A stretch of 42,912 bases of DNA from assembly GCA_944392145.1 (NCBI GenBank), contig CALXVS010000012.1:1-42912 (forward strand). Reading direction: 5' to 3'. Source of the DNA: an uncultured Alphaproteobacteria bacterium. Its GTDB lineage: Bacteria; Pseudomonadota; Alphaproteobacteria; CAAHEQ01; UBA3637. The stretch's first letter is position 1. The number at the start of each line of letters is the position of its first letter. The translations under genes were made by a program, and so were the position numbers. A model generated the notes under the pieces. That model was not told the origin of the DNA and did no database searches. It worked only from the letters and a program-made list of their open reading frames with translations. This document shows, in pieces, positions 5,931 to 42,023 of this stretch.

Positions 5931-5989
5931 GCAGTCCTCCCTGTTCACCGTTCTTGGATGTTATCTTTTTTTCAAGAAAAGGATTTTTG

Positions 5990-6199
5990 GTGTCTTATCA
6001 ATTTCGCTGTATTTTAATCATTACTGTTTTGAGCCTGCTTGCCGTCATCGGGATAATTGCAATTGCATCAATTCATATTTTATCAGGCACGGAACAGCTT
6101 AATTTAATTAAAAACGGGGAAACAATCACAGCGTATCAGATATACACAACAACCTGCTATGTCGGTTTAAAATTAAAAATATCGGCTTTAATTGCTTAA
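5990..6199 (+). CDS. Small membrane ORF upstream of the GT6 gene
   Basis: A 69-codon ORF starts at a GTG preceded by AAAAGGA. It has one strong transmembrane helix at residues 8-30 (core VLSLLAVIGIIAIASI) followed by about 35 polar residues. No family is recognised. It lies 37 bases before the glycosyltransferase ORF in another reading frame. It may be an independent small membrane protein. It may also be the detached membrane anchor of the enzyme, since vertebrate GT6 enzymes are type II membrane proteins. The region is AT-rich compared with ettA and parE. Confidence 0.4.
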   Translation: MSYQFRCILIITVLSLLAVIGIIAIASIHILSGTEQLNLIKNGETITAYQIYTTTCYVGLKLKISALIA

Positions 6200-6236
6200 A
6201 TGTTTTTAACAAAACAAAAACACCCTTTGCAACAAA

Positions 6237-7040
6237 ATGCCGCAAAACCATAATGGGGGGGGTATTTGTGCATATTTTTTAACAGATAAAAAAAACACAT
6301 ACCGTTTGGTGCAAGAATCGCAAATATCCTATACATCCCCCAAAAAAATTGCAGTTTTATACATCTCAACAGGACGCTACATTTGTTTTTGGAATGATTT
6401 TTATACATCTGCCGAAAAACATTTTTTACCACGGCACAAAAAAACTTATTTTTTATTCACGGATCATGATGATTTATCCGTTCCTGACAACGTTGTTAAA
6501 ATTCATCAGGAACAATTGCCTCGGCCTCATATAACTCTTAAACGGTATCATTTTTTTAGCGCAATAGAATCTCTTTTAAAAAAATTTGACTATATTTATT
6601 TTGTAAACGGAAACACAATCATTACACAAGATATTAACGAAGAAATTTTTCCGAACAACACACAAAAAATCATGGTCACACTTCATCCGGGATTTTATCG
6701 CGCCAATCCACGCCATGTAACATATGACCGTAATCCAAAATCCCGTGCCTTTATCCCATTGAATCAGGGAACATATTACGTTATGGGTGGCGTTAACGGT
6801 GGCACCGCTGCGGGATTTTTAGAAATGTCAAAAAAACTGAAAGCCGAAACAGATATTGATCTGAACAATGGCATTATACCGCGCTGGCATGACGAAAGCC
6901 TGTTAAACCGATATGTGGAAACACAAATACAAAATGGCAAAACACCCCTTATTTTGTTGCCTGTTTACGGTATTCCGCAATCGGGCTTTTCAAATATGAA
7001 TGAATTTCGCCCCCCTGGGAAAAATAAAGATATTGGATAA
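6237..7040 (+). CDS. GT6-family (ABO blood-group type) glycosyltransferase
   Basis: The protein resembles family GT6, which contains the human A and B transferases and bacterial relatives that add alpha-1,3 Gal or GalNAc. Matching landmarks are KKIAVLYISTGRYICFWNDF near residue 36, HPGFY at 150-154, YVMGGVNGGT at 181-190, and WHDES followed by LNRY from 217, which holds the catalytic Glu region. The metal-binding DXD of the animal enzymes is replaced by NGN at 124-126, the NXN form known from bacterial GT6. The likely role is capping a surface glycan such as LPS; the acceptor cannot be predicted. No ribosome-binding site precedes the ATG at 6237, so the true start is uncertain. Codons 6-9 contain a G8 tract. 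Low GC and an isolated position suggest horizontal acquisition. Confidence 0.85.
   Translation: MPQNHNGGGICAYFLTDKKNTYRLVQESQISYTSPKKIAVLYISTGRYICFWNDFYTSAEKHFLPRHKKTYFLFTDHDDLSVPDNVVKIHQEQLPRPHITLKRYHFFSAIESLLKKFDYIYFVNGNTIITQDINEEIFPNNTQKIMVTLHPGFYRANPRHVTYDRNPKSRAFIPLNQGTYYVMGGVNGGTAAGFLEMSKKLKAETDIDLNNGIIPRWHDESLLNRYVETQIQNGKTPLILLPVYGIPQSGFSNMNEFRPPGKNKDIG
6255..6262 (+). repeat. Poly-G tract (G8) at the 5' end of the GT6 ORF
   Basis: Eight consecutive G residues lie 18 bases after the ATG at 6237 in an otherwise AT-rich stretch. Gain or loss of one G would shift the reading frame ahead of the conserved domain. Confidence 0.7.
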
Positions 7041-7091
7041 GTCAAATTACGGTGGGGCTGCGTATCTAAGAGGGAAGTAATCAACAAAGAT

Positions 7092-7919
7092 CTATCGTGC
7101 CGACAACCATTCCAACACCGCATCCGTAAATCCGTGCCGTTTTAAATCGGTATGTGTGGCCGTTTCCGACGAAAAAAACATTTTAGGGTCTTTGGCGGTT
7201 TGGAATAAGGTCATCCCCAATTCATACGGCACCGTCGTATCCCGTTTCCCGTGGGCAATAAACAACCGTGTGTTCACATCCGAAATATAACGAATGGACG
7301 GATAAGAATCCCGCATCAGCCATTTAACCGGCAATAAATTTTTGACCCGAACGGCCGCCACATCGGTCAATGTGGTAAACGGGGCCTCTAAAATCACGGC
7401 ATCAAATGGCTCTTCCTGCCCCAACGTATATGCCGTAAATGTCGCCAAATATGTCCCCAATGAATATCCGTAAATAATGATATCTTTATTTTGGTATCCC
7501 AACCTTTTTAAATACGCCATGCCGGCCAGCGCATCTTGTTCAAACGTTTTTTGTCCCAACCGCCCCCGAAGACCGCCAAATCCCTGATATTCAATCATAA
7601 AAACGCCGTATCCGGCCGATACAAACGGTTCCACCCACGGAATAAAACACCCGATATTGCACGAATTACCGTGTAAAAACACCACCATCTTTTTTTGCTT
7701 GCCCGGTTTAACAAGCCATGCATAACTATGTCCGCCGGCCGGATTATCATAGGAAACTTCCTCAATCGCGGGTACATCACGCTGCGCATAGGCTAAATCG
7801 GCCGGCTGTGTATAGGGGTGGTATAATAATTTATCTTGAATCAGCCATGCCCCCGCGCACACCCCGATATACAGGCCGATTAAAATTCCCGCCAACGATT
7901 TCACATGTGTTGTTTTCAT
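7092..7919 (-). CDS. Membrane-anchored alpha/beta hydrolase (ABHD17/BEM46-like)
   Basis: This is a serine hydrolase of 275 residues. It has an N-terminal hydrophobic segment at about residues 9-29 (signal anchor), which places the catalytic domain in the periplasm. The oxyanion region HGNSCNIG, the nucleophile elbow GYSLG, the acid-bearing HGKRDTTVP and a late His in THTDL form a plausible Ser-Asp-His triad. The family includes esterases, thioesterases and peptidases of the S33-like type, so the substrate cannot be assigned. It is convergent with the GT6 gene (51-base gap) and divergent from parE. Confidence 0.85.
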   Translation of the reverse strand: MKTTHVKSLAGILIGLYIGVCAGAWLIQDKLLYHPYTQPADLAYAQRDVPAIEEVSYDNPAGGHSYAWLVKPGKQKKMVVFLHGNSCNIGCFIPWVEPFVSAGYGVFMIEYQGFGGLRGRLGQKTFEQDALAGMAYLKRLGYQNKDIIIYGYSLGTYLATFTAYTLGQEEPFDAVILEAPFTTLTDVAAVRVKNLLPVKWLMRDSYPSIRYISDVNTRLFIAHGKRDTTVPYELGMTLFQTAKDPKMFFSSETATHTDLKRHGFTDAVLEWLSAR

Positions 7920-23970: not shown

Positions 23971-25197
23971 GCGTCATCCTTACGAATGTGAGCATTCAGC
24001 AGTCTTGTTCCGCTTTTATTGACGTTGACGCATTGTAAAAATAAGGAATCATCGCCCTGGACCCTCGGGTCAAGCCCAAGGGTGACGACAGAGGGGGAAC
24101 CACCGTTCGCGACAACTTATCCCAACCCGCGACACAACCCTCGGCCGTCATCCTTGCGAATGCGAGCATTCAGGGGGGCATTGATACCGTTTTTTAGAAA
24201 CGAGAGACGTCCCCACACGCGAAAAAGCACACCGCCTGCGACGCCCCTCCGGCCGTCATCCTTGCGAATGCGAGGATCCAGGCAGCATGAATGCCGCTTT
24301 TAGAGACCTCAACGCCCCACAAAAATAAGGACTCTTTGCCCTGGATGCCCGATCAGGTCGGGCATGACGACGGTGGGGTGTCATGGACGGTGAAAGAACC
24401 CACCGCCCGCAACACCCCTCCGGCCGTCGTCCTTGCGAAAGCGAGCATCCAGGAAAACTGATTCCGCTTTTCTTACCCCTTGACACCACACATAAATAAG
24501 GACTCTTTGCCCTGGACCCTCGGGTCAAGCCCAAGGGTGACGATAGAGAGGAGTCCCGGACGCTGACACAACCCCAATCGTCATCCTTGCTCCCCCTCTC
24601 CGGCAGTCATGCTTGCGAAAGCGAGCATCCAGGAAAACTGATTCCGCTTTTCTTACCCCTTGACACCACACATAAATAAGGACTCTTTGCCCTGGACCCT
24701 CGGGTCAAGCCCAAGGGTGACGATAGAGGGGGAACCACCGTTCGCGACAACTTATCCCAACCCGCGACACAACCCTCGGCCGTCATCCTTGCGAACGCGA
24801 GGATCCAGGAACACTGATACCGCTTTTTGGGGACATCAACGCCCCACAAAAATAAGGACTCTTTGCCCTGGATGCCCGACGGGAAAGGGCATGACGACGG
24901 GAGGGACGTCACCGCCCACGAAAGAACCCACCACCGGCAACGCCTCTCCGGCCGTCATCCTTGCGAACGCGAGGATCCAGGAAACAACCAATACCGCTTT
25001 TATTGGCGTTGACGCTTCGCTAAAATAAGGACTCTTTGTCCTGGATGCCTGATCGGGGGCGGGCATGACGGGAGGAGGAAACGTCATGCTTGCGAAAGCG
25101 AGGATCCAGGCAACAACCAATTCCGCTTTTTTAGGGGCGTTGACACCCCGCCAAAATAAGGAATCATCGCCCTGGATGCCCGCATCCACGGATATAA
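23971..25197. repeat. Array of about nine dispersed palindromic repeats
   Basis: The unit is about 110-120 bases. It opens with the palindrome TCATCCTTGCGAANGCGAGG, then ATCCAGG, a variable part ending CCGCTTTT, the block AAAATAAGGACTCTTTGCCC, and a closing palindrome (for example GATGCCCG-ATCAGGT-CGGGCATGACG). CGTCA and TGACG form inverted ends. Units begin near 23973, 24137, 24255, 24425, 24579, 24607, 24780, 24954 and 25082; some are truncated. GC content is clearly higher than in the flanks. Short ORFs here (with SSLRMRG-like or AKARIQ-like peptides) are translations of the repeat and not genes. No transposase is present, so the units resemble REP/MITE-type non-autonomous elements. Confidence 0.85.
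24432..24728 (+). repeat. Recent 180-bp tandem duplication inside the repeat array
   Basis: Bases 24432-24548 and 24612-24728 are identical over 117 bases at an offset of 180. In addition 24091-24160 and 24726-24795 are identical over 70 bases, including the spacer between units. Spacer copying shows that segments were duplicated by recombination and not only by independent insertion. Confidence 0.85.
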
Positions 25198-25250
25198 CAA
25201 AGGGAGGGACAACACAGCCCCTCCCCTCGTTGGCTTTCTCCGGATTTAAC

Positions 25251-27479
25251 CTAAAAATCATTCCCGGTTTCGGTCAAACGGCAATTTCCGTTACTATCTA
25301 CCACACGCGTAGAACAATTGAAACAACTGGATACTTCTGATCCCTCTACACTTAAAGCTTCATCCCATTTACAAGGGTAACAGGATGATCCGTTCCAAAA
25401 CCGGTCACCACAACTGTTACAACTGTTTCGTTCACGTGAACCCGTTCCAATGTCAACGCCCCCTTGAATAGAGCATGAAGCACACTTTCCATCCGCGGTT
25501 TCAAATTGATCCGATGAACAATTTAAAGCACAATAACCATTACTTGTAACATGACGGTCCCCGCATACTGTGCATCCGGAACGTAAAGTTGTATCATCCC
25601 CTACCAAATATGCTGTGGGAGATGTGCAACTGTGGCAAGTTCCGCCGGCATCCCGATATTGACCAGTAGCACAGGCCTTGACACATTGCGTCCCCACCAC
25701 ATCACGCCCACAAGACAAACACCGATCCTTCAATGTATCGTCATCCGGATAAGTGGAAATATCCAAACTGCTGTTGTGATCACACTCCAAACAACTGCCA
25801 TATGCTGTCCGAATGCGATTGACAGGACAATTAGCTAACACGCAATAATTATTAGATTTTGTATATACGATCGAACGATTCCCGCATTCCTTACAAGAAT
25901 CATGTGCAAAGGCATATGTTGTTGCACTTTTACCAACAGCATAGCTTTGCCCATCATCACAAGAACGGCAAGTCCCACTCGAATCGCGATAACTTCCGTC
26001 ACCACACGCTTTATAGCAATATCCATCAATCACTTCCCTAACTTTTTTCCCATTCTTATTACACGCCAAACAAGCATCTATTAATGTTTGATCATTGCCA
26101 ATATAAATACGACCGGCATATGAGGAACAATTGTAACAATTCATACTGGAATCCCAAAATGTATTATTCGGGCAAGCTTTCAATGCACAGCGATTATTTG
26201 ATAATACCTGTCTTCCACAAGCGGCAGCCTCACAAACCGAAGCCTCGCTTTCATCAATTGTATATGATGTTGCTGTATTGCAAGGACGGCAATATCCGTT
26301 TTTATCTTTAAAATATCCTTCAGCACAGGCTTTAGCACGACAATAAATTGTTGAAGTCCCATAAACTTCGCGATTCTGACATTCCTTGCATAATGTTTTA
26401 GCTTCTTCCGTATTTGAAATAGTTACAATGGGATTCTCATCATCACATGCATAGCATTTATTATTTGATCCCATAAAATAAGATCCCTTGATTTCATCTG
26501 TATCACTGAGATTACTTCCACAATGAGTTTTCAACATACATGCGCCAACAAGATAAGCCCGATTTGAACATTTGCCACATTCTTCCTCTGTGACAGTCGT
26601 GATTCTAGCAGTTTTTGAGGCGCAGGGAACACAGGTGCCATTTGTTTGCATCATATATCCCGGATCACATTTTTTCACACATTTTTTTAAAACTGTATCA
26701 TAAATTCTGTTGCCACAAGCTTCACATACCTCACGTTGGCGATCTCCTAACAACACATCTACTGCATCTGGGGCTTCACCACACGAAACACAACCACCAT
26801 CCAATGCTTCAAACTCACCCTCTTCACAAATTGAATCTATACAAGCCCCCTCTTTTTCACTGTATATTTGTCCCGAGGGACAAAAACAAGAATTATCAAC
26901 CGAATCCAAATAAGTCCCTGTCGGACAGCGGCAGGCAAAAATACGATAATCCAAACTCGCATGCCGACCACATGTTGGTAATGCACCCAAGTCATTTTTA
27001 TACACAAATGCCATTGTCACACCAGCCATATCAACCGACGGCACACACAGATCAACATCACCAATATATTGTTCATCATTCACAAAAATAACAGGTGGAT
27101 ACTCATAATCACGTAAAATTTGCACACAAACCTCTTCCGGGATATCGTACACATCAATTTCAAAATAATGAGCATTATCCTTGGTAATATAACTGTCTGT
27201 TTCATATAACCCAATGATTTTATTTGGAAAAGAGGTTGTCAAATCTGTTTCGCGTGCCAACACATCACCGGTAGGCTCAATTTGTGCCGACACTTCAACC
27301 GCACGCATATTTAACTCATTGATAATTTCGTTTGTATGATATTTGTTTAAAGCCCAACGATATCCAGCAATACCTGCAATGCTTAATATCCCCATAATGG
27401 CTAATACACCCAACATTTCCACCATGGAGCGTCCATTTTCAGAACAAAATAAAGACCGAAAATTTCCCAATACACGCAT
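25251..27479 (-). CDS. Prepilin-like protein with long cysteine-repeat ectodomain
   Basis: The 742 residues begin with a type IV prepilin signal: a 16-residue leader ending in Gly, then RSMVEMLGVLAIMGILSI with Glu at +5. Prepilin peptidase should cleave after G16. Residues 40-190 form a pilin-like head. From about residue 190 to the end there are roughly nine cysteine-rich repeats of 50-60 residues with the pattern C-x-(D/G)G-x-C-x-x-C ... C-x-x-C-(G/N)(N/D)R, reminiscent of furin-like or growth-factor-receptor repeats. Such a protein would need extensive disulfide formation in the periplasm. It may be a large minor pilin or filament-tip adhesin. The start has AAGGAGACA before the ATG, the same site as at 42494. 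No assembly ATPase or platform protein is nearby. Confidence 0.8.
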   Translation of the reverse strand: MRVLGNFRSLFCSENGRSMVEMLGVLAIMGILSIAGIAGYRWALNKYHTNEIINELNMRAVEVSAQIEPTGDVLARETDLTTSFPNKIIGLYETDSYITKDNAHYFEIDVYDIPEEVCVQILRDYEYPPVIFVNDEQYIGDVDLCVPSVDMAGVTMAFVYKNDLGALPTCGRHASLDYRIFACRCPTGTYLDSVDNSCFCPSGQIYSEKEGACIDSICEEGEFEALDGGCVSCGEAPDAVDVLLGDRQREVCEACGNRIYDTVLKKCVKKCDPGYMMQTNGTCVPCASKTARITTVTEEECGKCSNRAYLVGACMLKTHCGSNLSDTDEIKGSYFMGSNNKCYACDDENPIVTISNTEEAKTLCKECQNREVYGTSTIYCRAKACAEGYFKDKNGYCRPCNTATSYTIDESEASVCEAAACGRQVLSNNRCALKACPNNTFWDSSMNCYNCSSYAGRIYIGNDQTLIDACLACNKNGKKVREVIDGYCYKACGDGSYRDSSGTCRSCDDGQSYAVGKSATTYAFAHDSCKECGNRSIVYTKSNNYCVLANCPVNRIRTAYGSCLECDHNSSLDISTYPDDDTLKDRCLSCGRDVVGTQCVKACATGQYRDAGGTCHSCTSPTAYLVGDDTTLRSGCTVCGDRHVTSNGYCALNCSSDQFETADGKCASCSIQGGVDIGTGSRERNSCNSCGDRFWNGSSCYPCKWDEALSVEGSEVSSCFNCSTRVVDSNGNCRLTETGNDF

Positions 27480-40854: not shown

Positions 40855-41253
40855 TTGTTTAAACTGCACCCGAATTTAACAACAAAAGAATATGTGACTG
40901 ATTTAAATCTTTGTCGCGTTTTAATGGAAAACAATCGTGAATTTCCATGGATTTTTCTTGTTCCAAAACGTGAAAACATCCATAATATGGCCGATTTGGC
41001 ATTTGAAGACCGTTTGACATTGATGCGGGAAATAGACGTATGTGAAAAAGCCATGATTCGCCTGTTCAAACCGGATCAAACCAATGTTGCCATGATTGGC
41101 AATGTGACACCGCAATTGCACGTTCATATTATCTGCCGTTTTCAAACAGATCCCTTTTGGCCCGATACGATTTGGGGCCGTCCGGGTGAAAAAATGACCC
41201 CGGCTGAAACAAACCGGCGAAAACTTTTGATTCAACAGGAGATTTTAAAATGA
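40855..41253 (+). CDS. HIT-domain protein
   Basis: Histidine-triad proteins are nucleotidyl hydrolases or transferases. The 132 residues carry the triad-like motif QLHVHIICR near residue 85, with the central nucleophile His in HVH, and the preceding N-terminal strand FPWIFLVPKR. Relatives in alphaproteobacteria are about 135 residues and include diadenosine-tetraphosphate hydrolase-like enzymes; the substrate is not known. The start is a TTG 7 bases after AAGGAG. It overlaps kdsB by 4 bases. Confidence 0.88.
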   Translation: MFKLHPNLTTKEYVTDLNLCRVLMENNREFPWIFLVPKRENIHNMADLAFEDRLTLMREIDVCEKAMIRLFKPDQTNVAMIGNVTPQLHVHIICRFQTDPFWPDTIWGRPGEKMTPAETNRRKLLIQQEILK

Positions 41254-42023
41254 GTAAAACTGCCGTTCTTATTCCCACCCGATTAAAGTCAACACGTCTG
41301 CCGAATAAACCGTTAGCCTTAATCAACGGTAAGCCGATGATTCAACATGTATATGAACATGCGGCTACCGTTCACCCGCAAGAAGATATTTATATTGCCT
41401 CGGGCGACCGTGAAATCATTGATGCCGCTGCTAAATTCGGGGCCAAATGCATTTTGACAGATCCGGCATTACCGTCGGGAACGGACCGAATCGCCGCAGC
41501 ACTTAAAGAAATAGATCCTGACGGAACAAAATATGATATTATCGTTAATTTTCAAGGAGACGGCATCAATGTTGATCCGGCACTCAATTTAAAACTGGTT
41601 GAACTCCTGAAAAAAACAGATGCCGACATGGTGACGGTCGGTATGCGTATTACCGATCCTGAGGCCATTCAAAACCCGAATTATGTTAAAATTGCCTTGG
41701 GATTAAAACCCGATGAGAATATGGGCCGAGCGCTCTACTTCTCACGCAGTGCTATTCCGTTTAATCGGGATGCCGTGCCGGCACTTAATTTTGCTTATTG
41801 GCATATTGGTATTTACGTTTATAAGGCTTCAGCCCTTCAAAAGTTCGTCTCCCTTCCCGTTGGCATTTTGGAAAATACCGAAAAGTTAGAACAATTACGC
41901 GCCCTTGAAAATGGGATGAGTATTTACGCAATGATTGTTCCGGATATCAAGTTGATTAAAGAGGCACCCGCTGATATCAACACGCCCGAGGAATTAGCCC
42001 TGGCACAAAAATATATGAAATAA
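41250..42023 (+). CDS. kdsB: 3-deoxy-manno-octulosonate cytidylyltransferase
   Basis: KdsB activates Kdo as CMP-Kdo for attachment to lipid A, the first step of LPS core synthesis, in the cytoplasm. The 257 residues start with the nucleotide-binding motif LIPTRLKSTRLPNKPL at 7-22. It is followed by LPSGTDRIAAAL near 77, NFQGDG near 99 and the catalytic-site region AYWHIGIYVYK near 181. The ATG overlaps the HIT gene stop (ATGA), and a strong terminator follows. It shows the organism makes Kdo-containing LPS. Confidence 0.95.
   Translation: MSKTAVLIPTRLKSTRLPNKPLALINGKPMIQHVYEHAATVHPQEDIYIASGDREIIDAAAKFGAKCILTDPALPSGTDRIAAALKEIDPDGTKYDIIVNFQGDGINVDPALNLKLVELLKKTDADMVTVGMRITDPEAIQNPNYVKIALGLKPDENMGRALYFSRSAIPFNRDAVPALNFAYWHIGIYVYKASALQKFVSLPVGILENTEKLEQLRALENGMSIYAMIVPDIKLIKEAPADINTPEELALAQKYMK

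Follow-up and report, generated by a model that had tools for sequence, protein, structure and literature searches.

A GT6 glycosyltransferase gene, probably disrupted, from a family of gut Alphaproteobacteria with membrane-anchored and GT11-fused GT6 forms

Bacterial genes for GT6 glycosyltransferases are commonly cited as a case of sporadic gene transfer and of mimicry of the host. The vertebrate members of the family, which include the human ABO transferase (GTA/GTB) and bovine alpha-1,3-galactosyltransferase, are metal-dependent enzymes with a DXD motif, built from a short N-terminus, a membrane segment, a stem and a catalytic domain. The metal-independent enzyme BoGT6a of Bacteroides ovatus (PDB 4ayj/4cj8) carries NXN and has neither an N-terminal anchor nor a stem. 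Its residues Lys231 and Arg243 hold the donor diphosphate, and replacing Lys231 with alanine lowers kcat more than 200-fold (PMC3961637). GT6 cores are also found in cyanophages (P-SSM2, Bellamy), where the annotated genes are of core length (695-716 bases). In Escherichia coli O86, a GT11 enzyme (WbwK) and a GT6 enzyme (WbnI) build first the H and then the B antigen on a bacterial glycan (PMC4202792).

Here we examine a GT6 gene in a window of 42,912 nucleotides, the whole stretch of DNA analysed, from the genome (1.45 Mb, 98 % complete) of an uncultured alphaproteobacterium. The gene occupies positions 5954-7080 and is, in our judgement, probably a disrupted gene of a GT6 alpha-1,3-galactosyl/N-acetylgalactosaminyltransferase. 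It belongs to a multi-copy, single-clade GT6 family in one order of gut Alphaproteobacteria that includes membrane-anchored forms and forms fused to GT11. This clade, above all its GT11 fusions, is of more interest than the window copy. The latter chiefly illustrates what a broken member looks like, and it would be wrong to annotate it as an active enzyme.

The catalytic core lies in an open frame of 267 amino acids on the forward strand (6237-7040), with residues 37-249 forming the GT6 domain. Pfam Glyco_transf_6 (PF03414) matches this frame at 99.8 bits (E 1.7e-28; cut-off 25) and was the only family returned by the Pfam scan, while NCBIfam Gltr_6 matches at 232.5 bits (E 4.3e-69), slightly below the cut-off of 250 for that model. 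When solved structures are ranked against the frame, BoGT6a (4ayj) comes first (E 1.6e-44) and the human ABO enzymes come next. An AlphaFold model built with 25 relatives has a pLDDT of 90 and a GT-A fold; it superposes on 4ayj_A with Z 32.5 and an rmsd of 1.2 Å over 223 residues at 37 % identity. A sequence-only reading of this DNA had assigned the frame to GT6, naming an NXN motif and four signature segments, and on each of these points it was right. The segments YISTGRY, HPGFY, MGGVNGG and WHDES/LNRY and the NGN motif are all present in the translation. In an alignment of 26 sequences, the HPGFY, GGxxGG and WHDES segments are conserved in the window GT6, MGGVNGG has V for the usual F, and the metal-site motif is NGN, so that Asn-X-Asn replaces Asp-X-Asp.

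The window GT6 thus resembles BoGT6a in its fold, in NXN, HPGFY and WHDES, and in having Gly (that of MGG) at the position equivalent to residue 268. This Gly has been linked with the use of GalNAc in GTA (PMC4692239); the donor of the window GT6 cannot be read safely from it. Human GTA/GTB and the bovine galactosyltransferase share the GT-A fold and the catalytic motifs with the window GT6 at only 20-25 % identity (Z of about 30, also for the model on human GTA/GTB), and differ from it in having DXD and metal dependence where the window GT6 has NGN. The cyanophage enzymes share the GT6 core at 33-35 % identity.

While the frame 6237-7040 does contain a GT6 core, the true start of the gene is not 6237 and its true end is not 7040. 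Intact anchored relatives in other genomes of the bacterial family are encoded by open frames about 290-440 residues long. These begin with a short basic N-terminus and a hydrophobic segment; the stem and the core come next, and the tail ends in ...DK..YGG..LRG or a sequence like it. In the window all of these parts are present on the forward strand, in changing frames. A hydrophobic N-terminal segment, the membrane anchor, and the start of the stem lie at 5954-6190 in an open frame (5954-6199) that differs from that of the core; the anchor and stem of one relative (L004) align from 6053. The next stem segment, FNCLNVFNKTKT..., lies at 6187-6285 in a third frame and shares the identity FNCLNVF-HTKT with the stem of another relative (L007). 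The core reaches to about 7008, and the conserved tail GKIKILDKSNYGGAAYLRGK with its stop follows at 7018-7080, again outside the frame of the core.

The frame changes were located by frame-tolerant alignment of window positions 5931-7110 with four intact relatives of the same family. Scores with and without frame changes were 842/777, 872/835, 881/819 and 842/807. All four alignments agree on the last change, at 7008-7020, where a C6 run is found (7010-7015), and on the second, within 6224-6302, a stretch of the stem-to-core transition that contains a G8 run (6255-6262). For the first change, at 6170-6190, the evidence comes from a single alignment (L004) together with the reading frames of the parts. 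Thus at least two of the three changes fall at or near short homopolymer runs. Because the three changes put anchor, stem, core and tail out of register with one another, the sequence cannot yield a normal full-length enzyme.

The last frame change bears directly on catalysis. The tail carries a Lys (7039-7041) and an Arg (7069-7071) that are near-invariant in the family alignment and align with Lys231 and Arg243 of BoGT6a. Both fall outside the open frame, whose model aligns no further than residue 230 of BoGT6a; in this the window copy differs from BoGT6a, which has the two residues in frame. The C-terminal Lys is common to DXD and NXN enzymes (Lys359 in alpha3GT, Lys231 in BoGT6a), and since the frame of the window GT6 lacks it, the gene appears to be a disrupted rather than a working member. 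Since the frame stops just before the residues that hold the diphosphate, the protein as written should be almost inactive and have no useful activity. The genome itself may retain GT6 activity, as a second GT6 gene on another contig (L001) has a complete core and tail, with no anchor in frame.

Conserved parts in different frames are what a pseudogene would present. Relaxed constraint, a further mark of pseudogenes, was not seen: of 58 sites that are invariant in the family, the core departs at one, no more than most intact copies do. With a core so little eroded, the breakage must be recent or the gene not truly dead, and a clean core is equally expected of a phase-variable or of a wrongly assembled gene. 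This leaves three readings of the window GT6: a recent break, switching by slippage, or misassembly at the homopolymers.

If the gene were phase-variable, slippage in the G8 and C6 runs would toggle a functional anchored GT6 and the assembly would show the off state. The two runs do fall in two of the three frame-change zones, the core is uneroded, and the genome holds about 45 runs of at least eight G, with up to 13 G. Most of the long G runs looked at, however, are intergenic or in repeats and not inside surface genes, which disfavours a general contingency system and led us to drop phase variation as the first explanation. It would also take three independent changes, the zone at 6170-6190 has no long G or C run, and the four aligned intact relatives have ordinary stem sequence at the position of the G8 run. 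Poly-G counts across the class vary too widely to inform the question. We therefore regard phase variation as unlikely.

An error of sequencing or assembly, with technical indels at homopolymers in a gene that is intact in the organism, would also account for the clean core and for the position of the frame changes. It would be strange, however, for three errors to fall within 1.1 kb, and neighbours on the same contig that are of similar or greater length (the long uvrB, ettA and parE genes among them) are intact, which speaks against a generally poor assembly; we give this explanation little credence. It is very improbable that the 267-residue frame alone makes a functional soluble GT6 of the bacterial kind, in spite of its NGN, HPGFY and WHDES motifs and confident GT-A fold, as it lacks the tail Lys and Arg for the diphosphate, part of its first 35 residues is out of the frame of the stem, and a conserved anchor and tail adjoin it in other frames. 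Disruption of a once complete gene thus remains our preferred reading.

The distribution of GT6 in the bacterial family places this copy in context. We found GT6 in 17 of 43 family genomes, which make up the whole order as represented in the comparison set, with up to four copies per genome. In a sample of 385 genomes from the class, it was found in one of five family members (the source genome) and in none of 380 genomes outside the family; this last figure describes the sample and not an absence from the class, because a distinct GT6 branch is present in two gut alphaproteobacterial MAGs (L034, L036). A tree was built of 24 family sequences together with sequences from phages, Bacteroidota, Acinetobacter and humans. 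In it, all 24 form one clade (support 95/91; 94 % of bootstrap trees) apart from the others, including the cyanophage sequences, and the window GT6 is grouped with copies from a different genus of the family. The metal-site motif in the clade is mostly NAN or NGN, with NGT or NGD in several copies of genus g11. Two human faecal 'phage' contigs carry a GT6 at 42 % identity, outside the family clade and weakly placed, and a DNA-level search of phages gave no match.

The expectation of a sporadic, horizontally acquired gene accordingly holds at the level of the class and fails within the family, where GT6 is common, multi-copy and of a single clade and is thus an old resident. The GC content of the window GT6 (0.368) is indeed lower than that of ettA (0.482) and parE (0.479), as had been put forward in favour of acquisition. 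We reject low GC as a sign of recent acquisition, since all clade GT6 genes examined have a GC content of 0.29-0.37 and their flanks are often low too. GT6 probably entered the family by transfer, but long ago, and its genes were then duplicated and lost, and perhaps exchanged, within the family. The clade thereby displays both the birth and the death of GT6 genes inside one lineage.

Several members of the family join GT6 to other domains. One case, in G041 (L016/L098, contig C118), is an open frame of 566 residues with an N-terminal membrane segment, a GT11 domain (110 bits) and a GT6 domain (91 bits, both by Pfam). The same GT11-GT6 arrangement, likewise with an N-terminal membrane segment, is found in G042 (L100), where it stops at a contig edge, and in G021 (L097), where the GT6 part is broken. 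Perhaps degenerate forms of it exist in G020 and in the source genome (L099, contig C18, 527 residues); neither has a GT6 profile match, and both would be assigned by position and faint similarity. In G009 (L102), a frame of 876 residues has GT10 and GT11 above the Pfam cut-offs and a GT6-like end at 15 bits, below the cut-off, so that the third domain is a probable GT6 and the chain a probable GT10-GT11-GT6. Double GT6 proteins of 645-650 residues lie beside a gene that is ffh-like by sequence (L020, G022:C33; L027, G024:C59), and in G020 this site is occupied by two separate GT6 genes (L018/L022, contig C15). In the double proteins the metal-site motif reads D-X-N or has drifted (D-X-other). 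Overall, GT11 occurs in 14 of the 43 family genomes, 13 of them with GT6 (Fisher P 8e-7, uncorrected for kinship), and GT10 in 29. A model of the GT11-GT6 fusion was too poor for use (pLDDT 58). We found no account of anchored or GT11-fused GT6 forms in the open-licence papers searched. A module of 50-60 residues, DCGT...G..L.V.WE.Y..E.F, recurs at the C-terminal ends of four GT6 proteins (L001, L008, L014, L015) and in the stems of two others (L012, L028); it had no Pfam match in the three proteins scanned (L001, L012, L028).

Before its disruption, the window gene would have encoded a protein with a membrane segment at its N-terminus and, beyond a stem of about 70-100 residues, a GT-A catalytic domain that carried NXN and ended in a short cationic tail closing over the UDP-sugar. 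Intact clade members have the anchor and stem that BoGT6a lacks, and their layout is that of the vertebrate enzymes, a match that may be convergent. By analogy with BoGT6a and WbnI, they would transfer Gal or GalNAc from a UDP-sugar in a retaining, metal-independent reaction, most likely at the inner membrane, to a Gal or Fuc-alpha2-Gal terminus of a surface glycan, probably LPS. The genome contains galE, which fits a supply of UDP-Gal, and LPS is a plausible carrier because an ADP-heptose epimerase gene, a heptosyltransferase-like gene and, in the window itself, a gene that is kdsB-like by sequence (41208-42020) are present. The PF16363 matches of the source genome included no gmd, and no fucose salvage of the Fkp type (PF07959) turned up in the 43 family genomes; that these searches revealed no GDP-fucose route argues against a Fuc-Gal acceptor in the source genome.

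The side of the membrane is a second point that fits poorly. Among 21 copies whose N-terminus holds a hydrophobic segment, about 17 have more positive charge before the segment than after it, a bias that predicts a catalytic domain outside the cytoplasm. The catalytic domains may thus face the periplasm as those of Golgi enzymes face the lumen. UDP-sugars are not normally found outside the cytoplasm; either the family anchors are not simple signal-anchors, or this is something new.

The recurrent fusion to GT11, of the alpha-1,2-fucosyltransferase type, suggests that H-type and then A/B-type ends are built stepwise on one chain. WbwK and WbnI of E. coli O86, to which we liken the fusions by description, are two proteins, whereas GT11 and GT6 of the family can form one anchored chain. 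The architectures of the lineage suggest ABH/Lewis-like glycans. It is possible, though rather doubtful, that the family has evolved a blood-group-type set of its own, in which anchored GT6 (up to four copies), double GT6, GT11-GT6 and GT10-GT11-GT6-like chains build H-like and then A/B-like (and Lewis-like) ends by means of one anchored protein, the window copy being a recently broken or switched member. For the source bacterium, antigen mimicry is unproven, and the proposal that it caps a surface glycan with alpha-Gal or GalNAc draws no support from a window copy with three frame changes and without the Lys231/Arg243 equivalents. The clade does provide a concrete way to find out if genuine ABH antigens are produced by commensals, a matter that touches on natural anti-A/B and anti-Gal antibodies.

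Most genera of the family do not share a common gene order around ettA. In the one relative with a similar junction, the stretch between ettA and the hydrolase that is the counterpart of the window GT6 site (L152, G005:C10) holds a low-GC gene for a GT2-like glycosyltransferase and no GT6, and the site may take varied glycosyltransferase cargo. Runs of 8-13 G in the source genome lie mostly in intergenic DNA or in interspersed repeats (for example C18:15132-15144 and C45:3611-3623), and in some other genomes of the family (G006, G010) ten G in a row occur at hundreds of positions. On the reverse strand of the window, a GC-rich stretch (24259-25273; up to 0.57) of overlapping low-complexity open frames with SRAKSPYFCG-like peptides has the look of an interspersed repeat, and such peptides are also encoded on other contigs (L123, L125, L126).
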